Under the pieces are notes generated by a model. That model was not told the origin of the DNA. It saw nothing but the letters and a program-made list of their open reading frames with translations, and made no database searches. From contig JAJZWM010000005.1 in NCBI GenBank assembly GCA_021846665.1, positions 1 through 43,132 on the forward strand: a stretch of DNA of 43,132 nucleotides, in the 5' to 3' direction. Source of the DNA: Nanobdellota archaeon (GTDB taxonomy: Archaea; Nanobdellota; Nanobdellia; Parvarchaeales; Parvarchaeaceae). A program made the position numbers and the translations under genes. This document shows positions 29,296 through 42,738 of the stretch, in pieces (position 1 is the stretch's first letter; every line of letters starts with the position of its first letter).

Positions 29296-29823
29296 ATGGA
29301 TAAAAAAGGGCAGATATTCACAATAGACTTGCTTATCTCTTTGTTTATATTCTTGCTTTTATTTACAACAGTTCTCCTTTTTCTTTATTCAAATGCGGAC
29401 ATAGACAATTCTTATTCTTCTTATTATTCTCAAATAACTTCAAATTACATCAATAATATTGCGGTCCAGGGAGCTAGTTCTTTGATTGGTTCTGAAGGTT
29501 ATCCCTCAAATTGGTATTCTATTTCTTGTAACCAGATAAAGCAGGTAGGGGTTATGCAAAATAATCTTGAAGTATCACCGACAAAACTTTATAATCTTAC
29601 TACTTTACCATTATCATGTCTTTCTTCATTGCTTAAGACCGGTGATTCATTCAATATAACATTTTACTATCTAAATGGTTCAATATTAAAGCTGGGTGGA
29701 AAAGCTATAACAGCAGGTTTCCCAATAGATTATTCCTCTAATTATATAGCTTCTATACAGAGATTTACTGTGTTATATCCAGGTAATGAAATAATTAGAC
29801 TTTCTTATACGGAGTGGTCATGA
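29296..29823 (+). CDS. Type IV pilin-like protein (class III-type signal peptide)
   Basis: 'MDKKGQIFTIDLLISLFIFLLLFTTVLLFLY' prepilin-like short charged leader then hydrophobic helix. Confidence 0.65.
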   Translation: MDKKGQIFTIDLLISLFIFLLLFTTVLLFLYSNADIDNSYSSYYSQITSNYINNIAVQGASSLIGSEGYPSNWYSISCNQIKQVGVMQNNLEVSPTKLYNLTTLPLSCLSSLLKTGDSFNITFYYLNGSILKLGGKAITAGFPIDYSSNYIASIQRFTVLYPGNEIIRLSYTEWS

Positions 29824-30530
29824 ACAAAGGACAAGTTTTTACGATTGATCTTGTAGTCGGGAGCATAATAATACTCAGCGTTATAACTTCCGCATATGCA
29901 ATAACAAGCTATTATCTTAAGTTGAATAGTTCAATAACTACTGATAGCGATTTTATCTCTCAGGTATACTCTGCAGTTTCATCCTTTTCACTTGTTTCAT
30001 CTACAGAGAATCAGCTTTTATTATTTGAAAATGGTGGCTCTGCTTCAGCATTAGACTCTTATGTTTCCTCGGTTTTAGGTTCTGAATTATCCGGCCCATT
30101 CCTTTTAAATGTGTTCACAAAATCTAATTACTCAAACAGTTCTCTGCCGTCTAACCTTATATTTTCATATAACTCAAGGTTTTTATCATCTTCTTCCTAC
30201 TCTACTTTTTATGAGCCATTAGTTGTAACAAATTATAGTAGTGCATGCGGTTCATCATGTAATGCTTCTTTATCTATAAATAGTGTATTTCCCTCTTACA
30301 ATGACACGATAAATGCTCCAAATTGTAACGTACTTTATGGAAATGGAACAGTGACTGGATGGACTATATTAAATGATACTCCTTCGGGTTACTGTACAAT
30401 TCTTGTACCTTCTTACGCGAATCCAAACAGCTATGATGTTGTTACTTCCTCTTCAACAGGAGTTTCTACTGGTTCAGCTACTTTACATATCCTTGCTATA
30501 GATCTTTTGGAATTCAAAGTTCAGAAGTAA
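29814..30530 (+). CDS. Type IV pilin-like protein, paralog-like neighbour
   Basis: 'MNKGQVFTIDLVVGSIIILSVITSAYAI...' same KGQ-(I/V)FTIDL signature; Ser/Asn/Tyr-rich ectodomain. Confidence 0.65.
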   Translation: MVMNKGQVFTIDLVVGSIIILSVITSAYAITSYYLKLNSSITTDSDFISQVYSAVSSFSLVSSTENQLLLFENGGSASALDSYVSSVLGSELSGPFLLNVFTKSNYSNSSLPSNLIFSYNSRFLSSSSYSTFYEPLVVTNYSSACGSSCNASLSINSVFPSYNDTINAPNCNVLYGNGTVTGWTILNDTPSGYCTILVPSYANPNSYDVVTSSSTGVSTGSATLHILAIDLLEFKVQK

Positions 30531-37344: not shown

Positions 37345-37597
37345 TAGAACTTACTGTAGCTTCATCTAAACTGTTTATTACCGCCCCTCTATCTTTTAAA
37401 GCCTTTTGTATTCCTTCAAAGTTTATTTTTGAGCCTTCAATGACTATCTTTAATCCTTCAGTGTGTATATCAACTTCTACAACCTTTATGAAAACATCTC
37501 CATTTCTTACATGCTTTGCCATATCACTGGCTAGGTCTATTATACTGTACTCACCAATTGGCTTTACCGCATCTATAACAAGTCTACTTAAATACAT
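37325..37597 (-). CDS. DUF211 family protein
   Basis: 'YLSRLVIDAVKPIGEYSIIDLASDMAKHVRNGDVFIKVVEVDIHTEGLKIVIEGSKINFEGIQKALKDRGAVINSLDEATVS' matches archaeal DUF211. Confidence 0.88.
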   Translation of the reverse strand: MYLSRLVIDAVKPIGEYSIIDLASDMAKHVRNGDVFIKVVEVDIHTEGLKIVIEGSKINFEGIQKALKDRGAVINSLDEATVSSNGKSKK

Positions 37598-38040
37598 CAG
37601 TAACTCCGAAAGTATAAGTCACTTTCTAACTTTCCTGTTTCTGCGGCAATGCTTGCTATGGGCTTTTCCATGTATGCTTTAGCTAATTTTATCTTTGCTT
37701 TATTTCTGTTCTTTGAGCCTTTCTTCTTTTTAGATAATTGTCTATTTCTGATCTTAAGAAGCTTCTCTGATTCCTTAAGTATCTTTGGATTCTCGATTAA
37801 TTCTCCGTTAGAAGTAGCTATAATGGAAGCAAGGCCTACATCTATGCCAACAGCCTGAGCTGAAATATGTGTAAAGTTCTTTTCCTTTTTTATCTCTAGT
37901 GCCAGTTCATTTAAATCGTATCCTAACATACTCTCCTTCTCTTCCTTGTATGCTTCGATACTTGCTTCTTCTATCTGCTTGTTTAAGTTCTCTCCCAGTT
38001 CCCTCGCTGGATATATTCTATATTTAAATGCTCTCTTCAT
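37597..38040 (-). pseudogene. Internally deleted IS200/IS605-type TnpB (OrfB) relic, 147-aa ORF
   Basis: N-terminus 'MKRAFKYRIYP' and RuvC-I block 'AVGIDVGLASIIATSNGELIENPKILKESEKLLKIRNRQLSKKKKGSKNRNKAKIKLAK' are TnpB; most of the middle and the C-terminal RuvC-II/III and Zn-finger are absent. Confidence 0.85.
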
Positions 38041-38207: not shown

Positions 38208-38606
38208 ATGAATATGATATTAAATAAAAAGGCTCAAGGCTTGCCTATAAATACTATTATACTTATAGCAGTAGGTCTGCTTATACTTGTTCTTTTAGTT
38301 ACATTTGTATTAGGCGGATTTAAGGGATTAGGAGGTGGTGCTAGTACAAGTAGTAGTGCCATTAGCGCATTTGAGGCACAGTGTCAAACGACGGCCTCTT
38401 CTGCTTCTTCATCTGGTTCTTTTCCTTACAGTTGGTGTAGTTCAACAACAAAAGAATCTAATGGTAAGATTCTATGGTGTTACACAAATCCTTCATCGCT
38501 TTCAAATACCACTACTATAACTTTATATAATGGAACTACATTAGCAGGGCCTGCTACTTCAGGTGCGCCAACTGGTTCTAATATAGTAAATTGTCCTGCT
38601 CCATAA
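38208..38606 (+). CDS. Archaeal type IV pilin-like protein (class III signal peptide)
   Basis: 'NKKAQGLPINTIILIAVGLLILVLLVTFVLGGFKG' prepilin leader/helix; Ser/Thr-rich ectodomain with 3 Cys pattern 'CQ..WC..WC..NC'. Confidence 0.8.
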   Translation: MNMILNKKAQGLPINTIILIAVGLLILVLLVTFVLGGFKGLGGGASTSSSAISAFEAQCQTTASSASSSGSFPYSWCSSTTKESNGKILWCYTNPSSLSNTTTITLYNGTTLAGPATSGAPTGSNIVNCPAP

Positions 38607-38654: not shown

Positions 38655-39290
38655 ATGAAGAAAAGACATACTTTAACTAATGTATTAATGATAGTGCTTT
38701 TAATAATAATTCTGATAGCAATATTTTATGCATTTAAAATGCATATAGTTCTCTTTAATTCCTGCTATTTTGCAAATGAAACCCTTGCAGTGAATGGTTC
38801 AGGGCCTTTTTGCCTGTCAAATAGTGGTGTAAACATAATAATAAATCGGTCTATACTTTCTTATTATCCAAATTCTACTTTAGCAATACACAATCAGAAT
38901 GTTTCTGCTTTGCCATTTTCATTTCTTGATAATAAGCCTTTAATAACAGTATGGAATGAACCTACGGTTTTGGGCCAAGATTCATACTCATTCCTTACAA
39001 TACCTGATACTTTCAAAGTTCATATGGTATACAATGCATCAGTATCTACTAATTTTATAGTTATGACTAATCAGCAATACGTTGAATGGGTAACTACAAA
39101 ACAGATTAATAACAATTATGTGGCTATTGCAACAGGTAAAAATATATCTGTATGGTTCAATGAAAGTACTGGGTGTGCAGGTTATGTTGCGGTCATCAAA
39201 CCTGTTTCAGGTAATGCTGTTACAATTTCGCCAGACGAAAAAATACTTTATGACCCTGCTACTTCACCAACAGGGGCATGTGCTGGCTGA
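38655..39290 (+). CDS. Exported/anchored single-TM protein, Cys-containing ectodomain
   Basis: 'MKKRHTLTNVLMIVLLIIILIAIFYAFKM' anchor; 4 Cys and several N-x-S/T sequons in the ectodomain. Confidence 0.65.
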   Translation: MKKRHTLTNVLMIVLLIIILIAIFYAFKMHIVLFNSCYFANETLAVNGSGPFCLSNSGVNIIINRSILSYYPNSTLAIHNQNVSALPFSFLDNKPLITVWNEPTVLGQDSYSFLTIPDTFKVHMVYNASVSTNFIVMTNQQYVEWVTTKQINNNYVAIATGKNISVWFNESTGCAGYVAVIKPVSGNAVTISPDEKILYDPATSPTGACAG

Positions 39291-39328: not shown

Positions 39329-39940
39329 ATGGAAATCGATATTTTTGATGCGGTAAATGAGCTAAAGAGCTTTTATGAAGACAATGCTCCTCTTTCGAAG
39401 ATAAGTGGTTTGATAAATTATAAGAAAGTATCCATAAGTCTTGAATACAAAGAGAGCGTTATAACAATAAAGTCGCAGCATCCTTTAACAATAAAAATAT
39501 ATAAAATATATAATATCTTGCTAAGACTTTTCCTTATAAACTCTGTAAAATTAACTATCGATTTTATAGAGAATAATCAGCAAAAATCGGTTTCAAAGCA
39601 ATTCGGTTCGGATGAAAACATAGATCCTGTAATAGAAGATCTTAAGGGTTTACCTCATGATAGCATAACTGACATAGTAATTGATACAGATTACTTTAAA
39701 ATAGTTGAAACTCAAGATATGAGTGATAAAGTTTCTATAATGCTTAAAAAGAGTGGTAAAAAGGAACTTTTTAAAAGTCTTTCAAATTATCTTTTTCCAT
39801 TCATAAATATGCCTGCAAATGAGTCTTTGTTGGAGGAAATAAGTTTTCTAAAACAGGAGGATCAGCTGACAGTGGATGTATTAATGAAGATTGATGGTTC
39901 CCCGATGGGGATAAAATCAAAAAAAGTAAGGTTGGTTTAA
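39329..39940 (+). CDS. Hypothetical protein in the KaiC/GTPase cluster
   Basis: 203-aa ORF ending 1 nt before the next start; no family recognised. Confidence 0.65.
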   Translation: MEIDIFDAVNELKSFYEDNAPLSKISGLINYKKVSISLEYKESVITIKSQHPLTIKIYKIYNILLRLFLINSVKLTIDFIENNQQKSVSKQFGSDENIDPVIEDLKGLPHDSITDIVIDTDYFKIVETQDMSDKVSIMLKKSGKKELFKSLSNYLFPFINMPANESLLEEISFLKQEDQLTVDVLMKIDGSPMGIKSKKVRLV

Positions 39941-39941
39941 T

Positions 39942-40610
39942 ATGGAAGGAATAAAAACTGGTTTTAAAAATTTTGATGAGCTTACTAATGGTTTGGATTA
40001 CAGAAGAGTTTATTCTTTATTTGGAAACAAAGAATCAGGAAAAGAACAGTTTATATATAAACTTGTGCAGTCTGCACTTTCAGCTAAGGATGCAATTGTT
40101 TATGTTTTAACTTCAAAGTCATATTCTGATTTAATAAATGAATTCAATTCCAGAGGTATAAATATAAATTCGTATCTTGGTACAGATTTTAAAATATTGG
40201 ATGATTTTAGCAGGACAAATTCACCTAGTGCCACGGATAATTCCTATGCTAAGATATTAAATGGGCCTTTGGATCTAACAGGTTTATCAGTTTCTTTATC
40301 GAGTGCTAACAGTGATTTTATAAAAGATGCAAAGCCAGTTATAAACATATTTGATAACTTGTCAAATCTACTTTTATACAATAATCCTGTAACAGTATAT
40401 AGATTTCTTCAGTTTGTTGTCGGCAAGGCAAAGTTAGCAGGAATAACTACAATATTCTCTATAGACGTTGCTATGCATCCACCGGAAGTTATAGAAACTA
40501 TAAAGAACCTATCTGATGCAATAATAGACCTGAAACTTGAAGATGGTAAAAGATATTTTAAGCTCTCTGGTACAAGCAAAGAAGTACTTCAGTTTACGGA
40601 AATTGAATGA
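39942..40610 (+). CDS. KaiC/RecA-like protein with degenerate Walker A
   Basis: 'GIKTGFKNFDELTNGLDYRRVYSLFGNKESGKEQFIYKLVQSAL' (GNKESGKE instead of GxxxxGKT/S); 'PVINIFDNLSNLLLY' at Walker B position. Confidence 0.75.
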   Translation: MEGIKTGFKNFDELTNGLDYRRVYSLFGNKESGKEQFIYKLVQSALSAKDAIVYVLTSKSYSDLINEFNSRGININSYLGTDFKILDDFSRTNSPSATDNSYAKILNGPLDLTGLSVSLSSANSDFIKDAKPVINIFDNLSNLLLYNNPVTVYRFLQFVVGKAKLAGITTIFSIDVAMHPPEVIETIKNLSDAIIDLKLEDGKRYFKLSGTSKEVLQFTEIE

Positions 40611-40681: not shown

Positions 40682-41923
40682 ATGGCAGAATATAAAGGGT
40701 TAGATGGAGTAACAGATAAGGACTTTGATCCTTACTTTGGAATAGCCAAGCTAGATGAACAACTTAAAGGAATACCGTCTAAGAAGATGGTATTAATATC
40801 TGCTTCACCATCAGTAGGAAATGAAGTTTTTGGGTATCAGATAATACATAAGAATATAACCTCTGATGTAAAAGTTCTTGTATTTCTTAATAGGACTTCT
40901 CCGCAATCATATCTTACAGATATGAAGGAATATGATTTTCCAGCAAATGATAATTTATTCATAATAGATGCATATAGTGGTATAACTGGTATAAAATCTG
41001 ATGAAACTGATCATATAAGAGTTATAAATAATCCTTATGATAAGGAAGAAGTAAAGACAAGGGTTCTTAAAGAACTAGAGAATGGATATGGCTTATTTGT
41101 AATAGACTCTTTCTCATTGCTTGCAGATTTCTTCGATTTTTCATTTGCTGATTCATTCATGAATGATATAAAACAGAAAATTATAAATAAAGATTCAGCA
41201 GCGGTGCTTCTTTTTACAGATTGGGGCTACGAAAAACAAAACGTAGATAAAATAATTTCGAATGTCAATTCGACAATAGAGATTAAAGGAATAGAAAAGC
41301 GGGTTATCTTTGGTCAATACTTTGCAGTATTAAAGTGCGATTGGATCGAAGAAAATCCGACATTTTCATCTGTTTTATTTAAAGCAATTAAACCTGGAGG
41401 AATAAAAGTTTATTTCCCCAAGATTTTAGTTACGGGGCCAACTGATGCAGGTAAAAGTTCTTTTATACATAGTGCTTCTAAAAATGCTGTAAGTGTAGAT
41501 AAGCTTGGAGGCACTATAGCATTGGATCATGGAACAGTTGATTTTCAGGGTTATCGTGCGGATTTATTTGGAACTCCAGGACAGGAGAGATTTGATCCTT
41601 TACTTAAAATGCTTGGTGGTGAGGCCATTGGAGTATTTCTTGTGGTAGACTCGACTAAGCCAGAACAATTCCCAAGAGCAGTTGAGATGCTTAGGAAAAC
41701 AGAAACTTATGGTTTGCCTGTAGTAGTAATTGCAAATAAAGCTGATCTTAATGGCTCTCTTAAAAAAGAGGATATAAGAGAAAAGCTTCATTTAGATTCT
41801 GCAATAACTTTAGTACAGACAGTTGCGGAGGATCTATCAAAAGTAGATCCGAATGAACCAATAAAATTAAAGGAGGAGGGAGTAAACGAGGCGTTATCTG
41901 CTTTGTTCAAGCAGTTAACATAA
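40682..41923 (+). CDS. Degenerate KaiC-like domain fused to Ras-like small GTPase (MglA/Rup, COG2229-like)
   Basis: N-term 'FDPYFGIAKLDEQLKGIPSKKMVLISASPSVGNEVFGYQIIHKN' (no GK[ST]) with 'GYGLFVIDSFSLL'; C-term G1 'GPTDAGKSSF', 'GGTIALDHGTVDF', G3 'DLFGTPGQERFDPLL', G4 'NKAD'. Confidence 0.88.
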   Translation: MAEYKGLDGVTDKDFDPYFGIAKLDEQLKGIPSKKMVLISASPSVGNEVFGYQIIHKNITSDVKVLVFLNRTSPQSYLTDMKEYDFPANDNLFIIDAYSGITGIKSDETDHIRVINNPYDKEEVKTRVLKELENGYGLFVIDSFSLLADFFDFSFADSFMNDIKQKIINKDSAAVLLFTDWGYEKQNVDKIISNVNSTIEIKGIEKRVIFGQYFAVLKCDWIEENPTFSSVLFKAIKPGGIKVYFPKILVTGPTDAGKSSFIHSASKNAVSVDKLGGTIALDHGTVDFQGYRADLFGTPGQERFDPLLKMLGGEAIGVFLVVDSTKPEQFPRAVEMLRKTETYGLPVVVIANKADLNGSLKKEDIREKLHLDSAITLVQTVAEDLSKVDPNEPIKLKEEGVNEALSALFKQLT

Positions 41924-41953: not shown

Positions 41954-42328
41954 ATGGCTACAAAATCTGAACAATTAAAAAGCGTTTTACAAAGATTAAG
42001 TACGGTTGGTGGAATAAAGGCATCTGCTGTTATATCAGCTAATGGTTTACCTATGGTATCATTAATGCCTGAAGACGTAGATCCAAATACTTTTGCTGCA
42101 ATGCTGGCTTCAATGGTAGGTTCAGCAGAAACAGCTATCAAATCTTTAGGTGCAAAGAATACTCTAGAAAGAGTAGTTGCAGAGTCAAAAGATATAAGGG
42201 TAGTAGCTGTACAAGCAGGAACTGATGCAATACTTACAATAATGATTGATCCTAATACAAATTATGGTTTGATTCTTTTAGAATCTTCTAAAGCTTCAAA
42301 TGAAATAGCAGAAATAATGAAGCAATAA
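41954..42328 (+). CDS. Roadblock/LC7 domain protein (MglB-like)
   Basis: 'LQRLSTVGGIKASAVISANGLPMVSLMPEDVDPNTFAAMLASMVGSAETAIKSLG...VVAVQAGTDAILTIMIDPNTNYGLILLESSKAS' Roadblock pattern. Confidence 0.9.
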   Translation: MATKSEQLKSVLQRLSTVGGIKASAVISANGLPMVSLMPEDVDPNTFAAMLASMVGSAETAIKSLGAKNTLERVVAESKDIRVVAVQAGTDAILTIMIDPNTNYGLILLESSKASNEIAEIMKQ

Positions 42329-42330
42329 GA

Positions 42331-42738
42331 ATGTCATTTGTTCTTTTTATTTGTAAGTATAATACTAGCAGAAGTCAAATAGCAGAAGCATTGTTTAATG
42401 GACTTACTAAAAAACATAAAGCTGTAAGTGTAGCAGGCAGTTCTGTTGGTAATGGAATAAATTCTATAGATATAAAATTAGTACAAGAAACATTTGGAAT
42501 AGACATGAGTAAGCAAATTCCTAAACTACCTACTCTAAATTTATTGAAAAGCGCTGACAAAATAATAGTTGTCTGTGATCCTAAGGATTGCATACTTATA
42601 CCAGAAAGCTATATACAAAAAGCGGAGCACTGGTACATACCAGAATTAGATGGTCTTTCTGCAGAAGAAAAAATAAAAATAATTAAGGAGATATACAAAA
42701 AAGTAAAGGAATTAATTTTAGAGCTGGATAGAGAATAA
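42331..42738 (+). CDS. Low-molecular-weight protein tyrosine phosphatase / ArsC-like
   Basis: P-loop 'VLFICKYNTSRSQIAEALFN' (CX5RS); 'GIDMSKQIPKL', 'ADKIIVVCDPKDC', 'AEHWYIPELDGLSAEEKIKIIKEI'. Confidence 0.87.
   Translation: MSFVLFICKYNTSRSQIAEALFNGLTKKHKAVSVAGSSVGNGINSIDIKLVQETFGIDMSKQIPKLPTLNLLKSADKIIVVCDPKDCILIPESYIQKAEHWYIPELDGLSAEEKIKIIKEIYKKVKELILELDRE

Follow-up and report, generated by a model that had tools for sequence, protein, structure and literature searches.

The window, that is, the whole 43,132-nucleotide stretch of DNA analyzed here, encodes at 40682..41923 (+) a 413-aa protein that joins a pseudo-KaiC domain to an MglA-type GTPase, as identified from the ORF, Pfam, homologues, and AlphaFold2 with Foldseek. 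The gene belongs to a conserved four-gene core that runs, in the window's family, in the order 203-aa protein (39329..39940, +), KaiC-like protein (222 aa; 39942..40610, +), fusion, and Roadblock/LC7 protein of the MglB type (124 aa; 41954..42328, +). The KaiC-like partner was assigned from PF06745 (43.8 bits), alignment and its adjacency across phyla, the Roadblock protein from PF03259 (52.7 bits), alignment and a search of its own genome, and the family-specific first gene from synteny and AlphaFold2. Directly upstream of the core lies a gene for a 211-aa single-TM protein (38655..39290, +), in conserved synteny in relatives, preceded by one for a 132-aa pilin-like protein (38208..38606, +) with the N-terminus KKAQGLPINTIILIAVG. 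The pilin-like protein has no Pfam match and was assigned by eye from its N-terminal motif and from its position upstream of the core in relatives. An arsenate reductase/LMW phosphatase-like gene (42331-42738) follows the Roadblock gene; among relatives, only the closest have it in this position. At 37597-38040 (-) we noted by eye what looks like a short TnpB-type transposase remnant (KYRIYP start, VGIDVG motif), and two overlapping pilin-like ORFs (29296-29823 and 29814-30530; GQIFTIDLL and GQVFTIDLV) lie ~10 kb upstream of the operon.

The KaiC/ArlH-fold domain of the fusion spans residues 19-243 (40736..41410, +); Pfam matches residues 20-245 to KaiC PF06745 with 27.3 bits, narrowly above the 26.6 cut-off. 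An AlphaFold2 model built on a 28-row alignment (pLDDT 82) contains two folded domains in a single chain. Foldseek matches of the N-terminal domain include ArlH/FlaH (4yds; TM 0.72 by target, 22% identity), PH0284 (2dr3; TM 0.76 by target) and cyanobacterial KaiC. The GTPase domain, which by itself accounts for ~170 aa of the 413-aa protein (residues 244-413; 41411..41920, +), was assigned from PF00025/PF00071, NCBIfam small_GTP and a tree. Its best Pfam match is Arf, with residues 247-410 scoring 42.3 bits against the Arf/Ras-type model PF00025 (cut-off 22.3). There is no linker between the domains, and the final KaiC strands lead directly into the first GTPase strand (PGGIKVYFPKILVTGP). The protein is a fusion of a KaiC fold and an MglA-type GTPase. 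The initial annotation had described such a polypeptide, with an N-terminal part of RecA/KaiC type; its ORF, coordinates and motifs hold, Pfam and AlphaFold2 agree, and the predicted structure of the N-terminal part is KaiC/ArlH-like.

The ATP site of the KaiC domain is degenerate. Its P-loop ASPSVGNEV (residues 41-49; 40802..40828, +) was located by alignment with a canonical KaiC encoded in the same genome: PGAGKTTF in the intact same-genome KaiC proteins becomes PSVGNEVF in the fusion, and relative to KaiC GxPGTGKTxF the window's SASPSVGNEVF has Asn for Lys and Glu for Thr. This loss of GK[ST] had been claimed for the window, and none of the 62 aligned members has GK[ST] in the P-loop column. 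Additionally, the KaiC catalytic Glu pair is replaced by Arg-Thr in the window fusion and is lost in all representatives aligned. Since two separate active-site features are altered wherever they were aligned, the earlier dead-KaiC claim is valid family-wide. Fourteen naive Walker A pattern matches in the N-terminal domain were rejected as chance occurrences of GGIPxGK[ST] type, located in the loop leading to the first strand and not in the P-loop. The Walker B-like strand GLFVIDS (VIDS) is kept in the window fusion, as had been noted, though many relatives lack it, several euryarchaeal members among them. Between pairs from the genus, dN/dS was 0.02-0.05 in the KaiC part and 0.01-0.04 in the GTPase part, rough values because synonymous sites are near-saturated in some pairs. 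Such low values indicate that the dead KaiC domain is being preserved, not eroded.

The GTPase domain looks complete, as first described, with G1/P-loop GPTDAGKS (residues 252-259; 41435..41458, +; GPTDAGKSS with the next residue), a further motif TIALDHG, G3 GTPGQERF (residues 297-304; 41570..41593, +) and G4 NKAD (residues 352-355; 41735..41746, +). Among the aligned members GxxxxGK[ST] is present in 62/62, GTPG in 61/62, GTPGQ in 58/62 and NKxD in 52/62; the remaining 10 have a changed G4 (NKAN, NMKD, HKQA and others), and G3 is damaged in the most distant member, L031. Fusion ORFs of some Parvarchaeota (L021, L022, L024, L025, L026 and L027) carry NKxN in place of NKxD in an otherwise intact GTPase domain; the G4 position altered in NKxN is a determinant of guanine specificity in Ras-type GTPases. 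The motif counts support the GTPase as the only active-looking nucleotide site in the fusion polypeptide. The proposal that it is the only active nucleotide switch appears to stand within the polypeptide, but neighboring genes encode a further KaiC-like protein, likewise degenerate, and a Roadblock protein.

Assignment of the GTPase to the "MglA/Rup type" had left two families in play. According to Wuichet and Sogaard-Andersen (PMC4316618), MglA and Rup are separated by MglB coupling, GTPGQ is common to MglA groups 2-5, and none of the Rup proteins in the published census shows MglB coupling. The fusion GTPase carries this GTPGQ G3 signature and is coupled to an adjacent Roadblock/MglB gene or, in L161, fused to one. 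Because of its GTPGQ motif and its Roadblock partner we place it on the MglA side and reject Rup membership, so that the first half of the earlier label stands and the second does not. At 413 aa the fusion falls outside the small-size definition of MglA (240 aa or less). A further criterion for MglA groups 2-5 is an extra threonine next to that of G2; most fusions read GTT here, and those of Parvarchaeota, including the window's, have Gly at this position (GGT). A tree was built from GTPase domains of 33 fusions and 52 other proteins, with known Rup, Arf and group 1 rows absent; in it the fusions cluster together (support 80/87) next to bacterial GTPases of the GTPGQ type. This is consistent with a single fusion event, although one tree group is no proof.

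A search of archaeal genomes for the two-domain architecture, suggested at the outset, found it in several phyla. Within the genus, 25 of 28 genomes carry the full-length fusion (62-94% identity, near relatives 91-94%), as do 3 of 4 genomes from sister genera (50-64%), and G068 at 41%; identity in other phyla is ~41%. A scan of named genomes found it in ANME-2, Methanoperedens, Archaeoglobaceae, Methanosarcinales, Methanobacteriaceae, Micrarchaeota and Aenigmatarchaeota. In genome samples taken by phylum, it occurs in 52/296 genomes for that of an Archaeoglobaceae genome (with partial alignment in a few), 18/152 for that of a Methanobacteriaceae genome, 7/156 for that of a Micrarchaeota genome (one partial) and 1/29 for that of a Thermoproteota record; 279 genomes of the window's own phylum yielded 13 full-length fusions. 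The fusion is a family spread over several archaeal phyla, with many methane-cycling archaea among its carriers, and no oddity of the window genome. Apparent extra domains in open frames of ~632-638 in some Methanobacteriota were set aside, as the ORF is 393 aa in both cases checked (L192 and L193).

The partners of the fusion are also conserved. In Euryarchaeota as in other phyla, the KaiC-like, fusion and Roadblock genes recur as a trio whose order varies. A KaiC-like gene adjoins the fusion in most loci examined, often with the Walker A Gly-Lys kept; in the window partner the Walker A motif is GNKESGKE, with Gly-Lys kept, Ser/Thr changed to Glu and the catalytic Glu lost. One methanogen ORF (L161:4752-6392, -, 546 aa) is a triple fusion of KaiC, GTPase and Roadblock, and this single chain directly supports the GTPase-Roadblock pairing, which we regard as well supported. 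Loci that we take to be from a Methanoregula-like group keep the KaiC-like neighbor, and there the profile model detected no Roadblock beside the fusion. A search of the window genome itself found 41954..42328 as the sole Roadblock and the fusion as the sole Arf-like GTPase; the genome is only 0.7 Mb, and it follows that strong genome reduction has not removed the switch. The 203-aa protein was modeled by AlphaFold2 with pLDDT 91 and gave no significant PDB fold match; it is possibly a new fold. Its matches to Roadblock/Ragulator proteins were too weak (E > 0.1), and that relationship was set aside.

The genes around the fusion provide the main indication of function. In L171, a sister lineage in the window's class, pilin-like ORFs, a PilB-type ATPase and two TadC-type membrane proteins come first, and after them the fusion and three Roadblocks, with two HAMP sensors beside the Roadblock genes. 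The fusion there is part of a type IV pilus operon, and this neighborhood is the strongest functional hint. Furthermore, the fusion comes after a run of pilin-like ORFs in G068; in Methanobacteriales two pilin-like ORFs precede the order Roadblock-fusion-KaiC-KaiC, followed by a TPR protein; and in many Parvarchaeota relatives a pilin-like and a single-TM gene precede the operon, most of these pilin assignments being based on N-terminal motifs without Pfam support. The TPR assignment comes from Pfam in L063, and the proteins in the same position in L192, L193, L194 and L195 have similar N-termini. No recognizable pilus genes lie beside the trio in the Halobacteriota loci (ANME-2, Methanosarcinales, Archaeoglobaceae). 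Two operons for pilus-type motors are present in the window genome, on contigs other than that of the fusion (C36 and C19). A stand-alone pseudo-KaiC without GTPase (G042, L039:6211-6909; P-loop SKPGVENAPF) was also seen directly downstream of a pilin-like ORF.

This context accords with published observations on related proteins. MglA-GTP activates type IV pili in Myxococcus via a TPR protein (PMC7668184), the archaeal Roadblock arCOG02603 is frequent in pilus loci (PMC4858521), and ArlH docks on the archaellum motor ATPase ArlI (PMC8978795). Taking these three together with the pilus genes near the fusion in L171, G068, Methanobacteriales and Parvarchaeota, we infer a pilus-motor switch, and we consider it on balance probable that the system is an MglA/MglB-like GTPase switch carried on a dead ArlH-like KaiC adaptor and gating a pilus-type motor. 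To judge from its motifs, the C-terminal GTPase would cycle between GTP and GDP, and the neighboring Roadblock protein would bind it and serve as a putative GAP or other regulator. The pseudo-KaiC domain would no longer bind or hydrolyze ATP by the KaiC mechanism and would instead offer an assembly surface, docking on a hexameric secretion/pilus motor, as ArlH does on ArlI, and/or on the adjacent KaiC-like partner. The GTP state and partner binding may then set the engagement of the motor-associated complex, with control of type IV pilus-like surface structures as the likely output. The "scaffold or localisation module" of the initial annotation can thus be sharpened to a candidate ArlH-like docking module, for which the pilus-gene context is the main hint.

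The same neighborhoods can be read as a general signaling relay of conservon type, in which sensor input would travel through the GTPase and its Roadblock to varied outputs such as metabolism, transcription or cell shape, and pilus genes are one local neighbor. HAMP sensors adjoin the fusion in G068 and G217, PAS proteins occur in L169 and a V4R protein in L167, the neighborhoods vary among lineages, and conservons also couple GTPase and Roadblock (PMC4316618). However, three lineages have pilin-like or pilus-motor genes next to the fusion, and no sensor adjoins the operon in the window; we regard such a relay as rather unlikely. A mixed KaiC-type ring seems more doubtful still. KaiC-family proteins form hexamers, and the pseudo-KaiC domain could assemble with the KaiC-like partner that adjoins it in most loci examined, the ATP state of the partner ring controlling the attached GTPase. 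The frequently kept Walker A Gly-Lys and the hexameric state of unphosphorylated ArlH (PMC8978795) fit this scheme, whereas the partner lacks the catalytic Glu and has an atypical Walker A (GKE/GKD, in some cases lost). Such a ring would be compatible with the pilus-motor switch as its upper layer. A frameshift or misassembly joining two genes, the artefact named at the outset, is ruled out with near certainty by full-length conservation in near relatives and other phyla, with identical architecture in dozens of independent assemblies, single-contig genomes included.

If the pilus-motor switch is correct, the fusion would seem to be an archaeal counterpart, so far overlooked, of the switch controlling bacterial pili. 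More tentatively, we suggest an unrecognized family of archaeal GTPase switches of sufficient age to be common to DPANN and Euryarchaeota. In it, a dead KaiC would plug MglA/Roadblock directly onto a type IV pilus-type motor, and one polypeptide would be both MglA and motor adaptor. The GTPase activity, GAP role, motor docking and pilus output are all predictions of this model. The fusion ties together two archaeal puzzles, the role of many KaiC-like proteins and the targets of archaeal MglA-like GTPases. Wuichet and Sogaard-Andersen saw no conservation among the neighbors of the archaeal MglA proteins of group 4 (PMC4316618), whereas the conserved and partly fused neighbors of the fusion name partners to test. 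The results also suggest GTPase control of pili beyond bacteria, and the presence of the fusion in methanogens makes it testable there.

Archaeal KaiC homologues, inactivated ones included, were reportedly proposed by Makarova, Galperin and Koonin in 2017 as hubs linked to varied input and output domains, and the KaiC-GTPase fusion may be listed there. No published description of the fusion was found in the literature searched, the coverage of which did not take in this 2017 survey, a possible source. Similar to the fusion, MglA/MglB modules of groups 2-5, including CvnD/CvnB, have GTPGQ, GxxxxGK[ST] and an adjacent Roadblock. By definition, known MglA proteins have a single domain and at most 240 aa, whereas the fusion's GTPase makes up the C-terminal half of a protein with a KaiC fold, and a second KaiC-like gene belongs to the unit, unlike in known MglA/MglB modules. 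Myxococcus MglA, which belongs to group 1, switches type IV pili and in its GTP form acts through the TPR protein SgmX; the Methanobacteriales fusion loci also include a TPR protein. Conservons, which pair a GTPase with Roadblock (PMC4316618), comprise in actinobacteria a CvnA-type histidine kinase, CvnB Roadblock, CvnC and CvnD GTPase; Roadblock and GTPase are common to the window operon, and its ORFs and Pfam matches include no kinase or CvnC-like gene. Rup and Arf/SRbeta GTPases have the same Ras-superfamily fold, and unlike the census Rup proteins the fusion has an adjacent or fused Roadblock (PMC4316618). ArlH/FlaH is archaeal, has the same RecA/KaiC fold (Foldseek, 4yds) and is tied to type IV pilus-type machines. 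In contrast to ArlH, which binds ATP, the fusion's N-terminal domain lacks the Walker A Lys/Thr and the catalytic Glu and is fused to a GTPase. ArlH orthology was rejected on a score of 20 bits against a cut-off of 215, the absence of an archaellum cluster (no archaellum genes were seen among the window ORFs) and the lost ATP site. We therefore call the fusion family a variant on known MglA and KaiC themes: KaiC hubs had reportedly been proposed and MglA/MglB modules were known already, and what is apparently new is their fusion.
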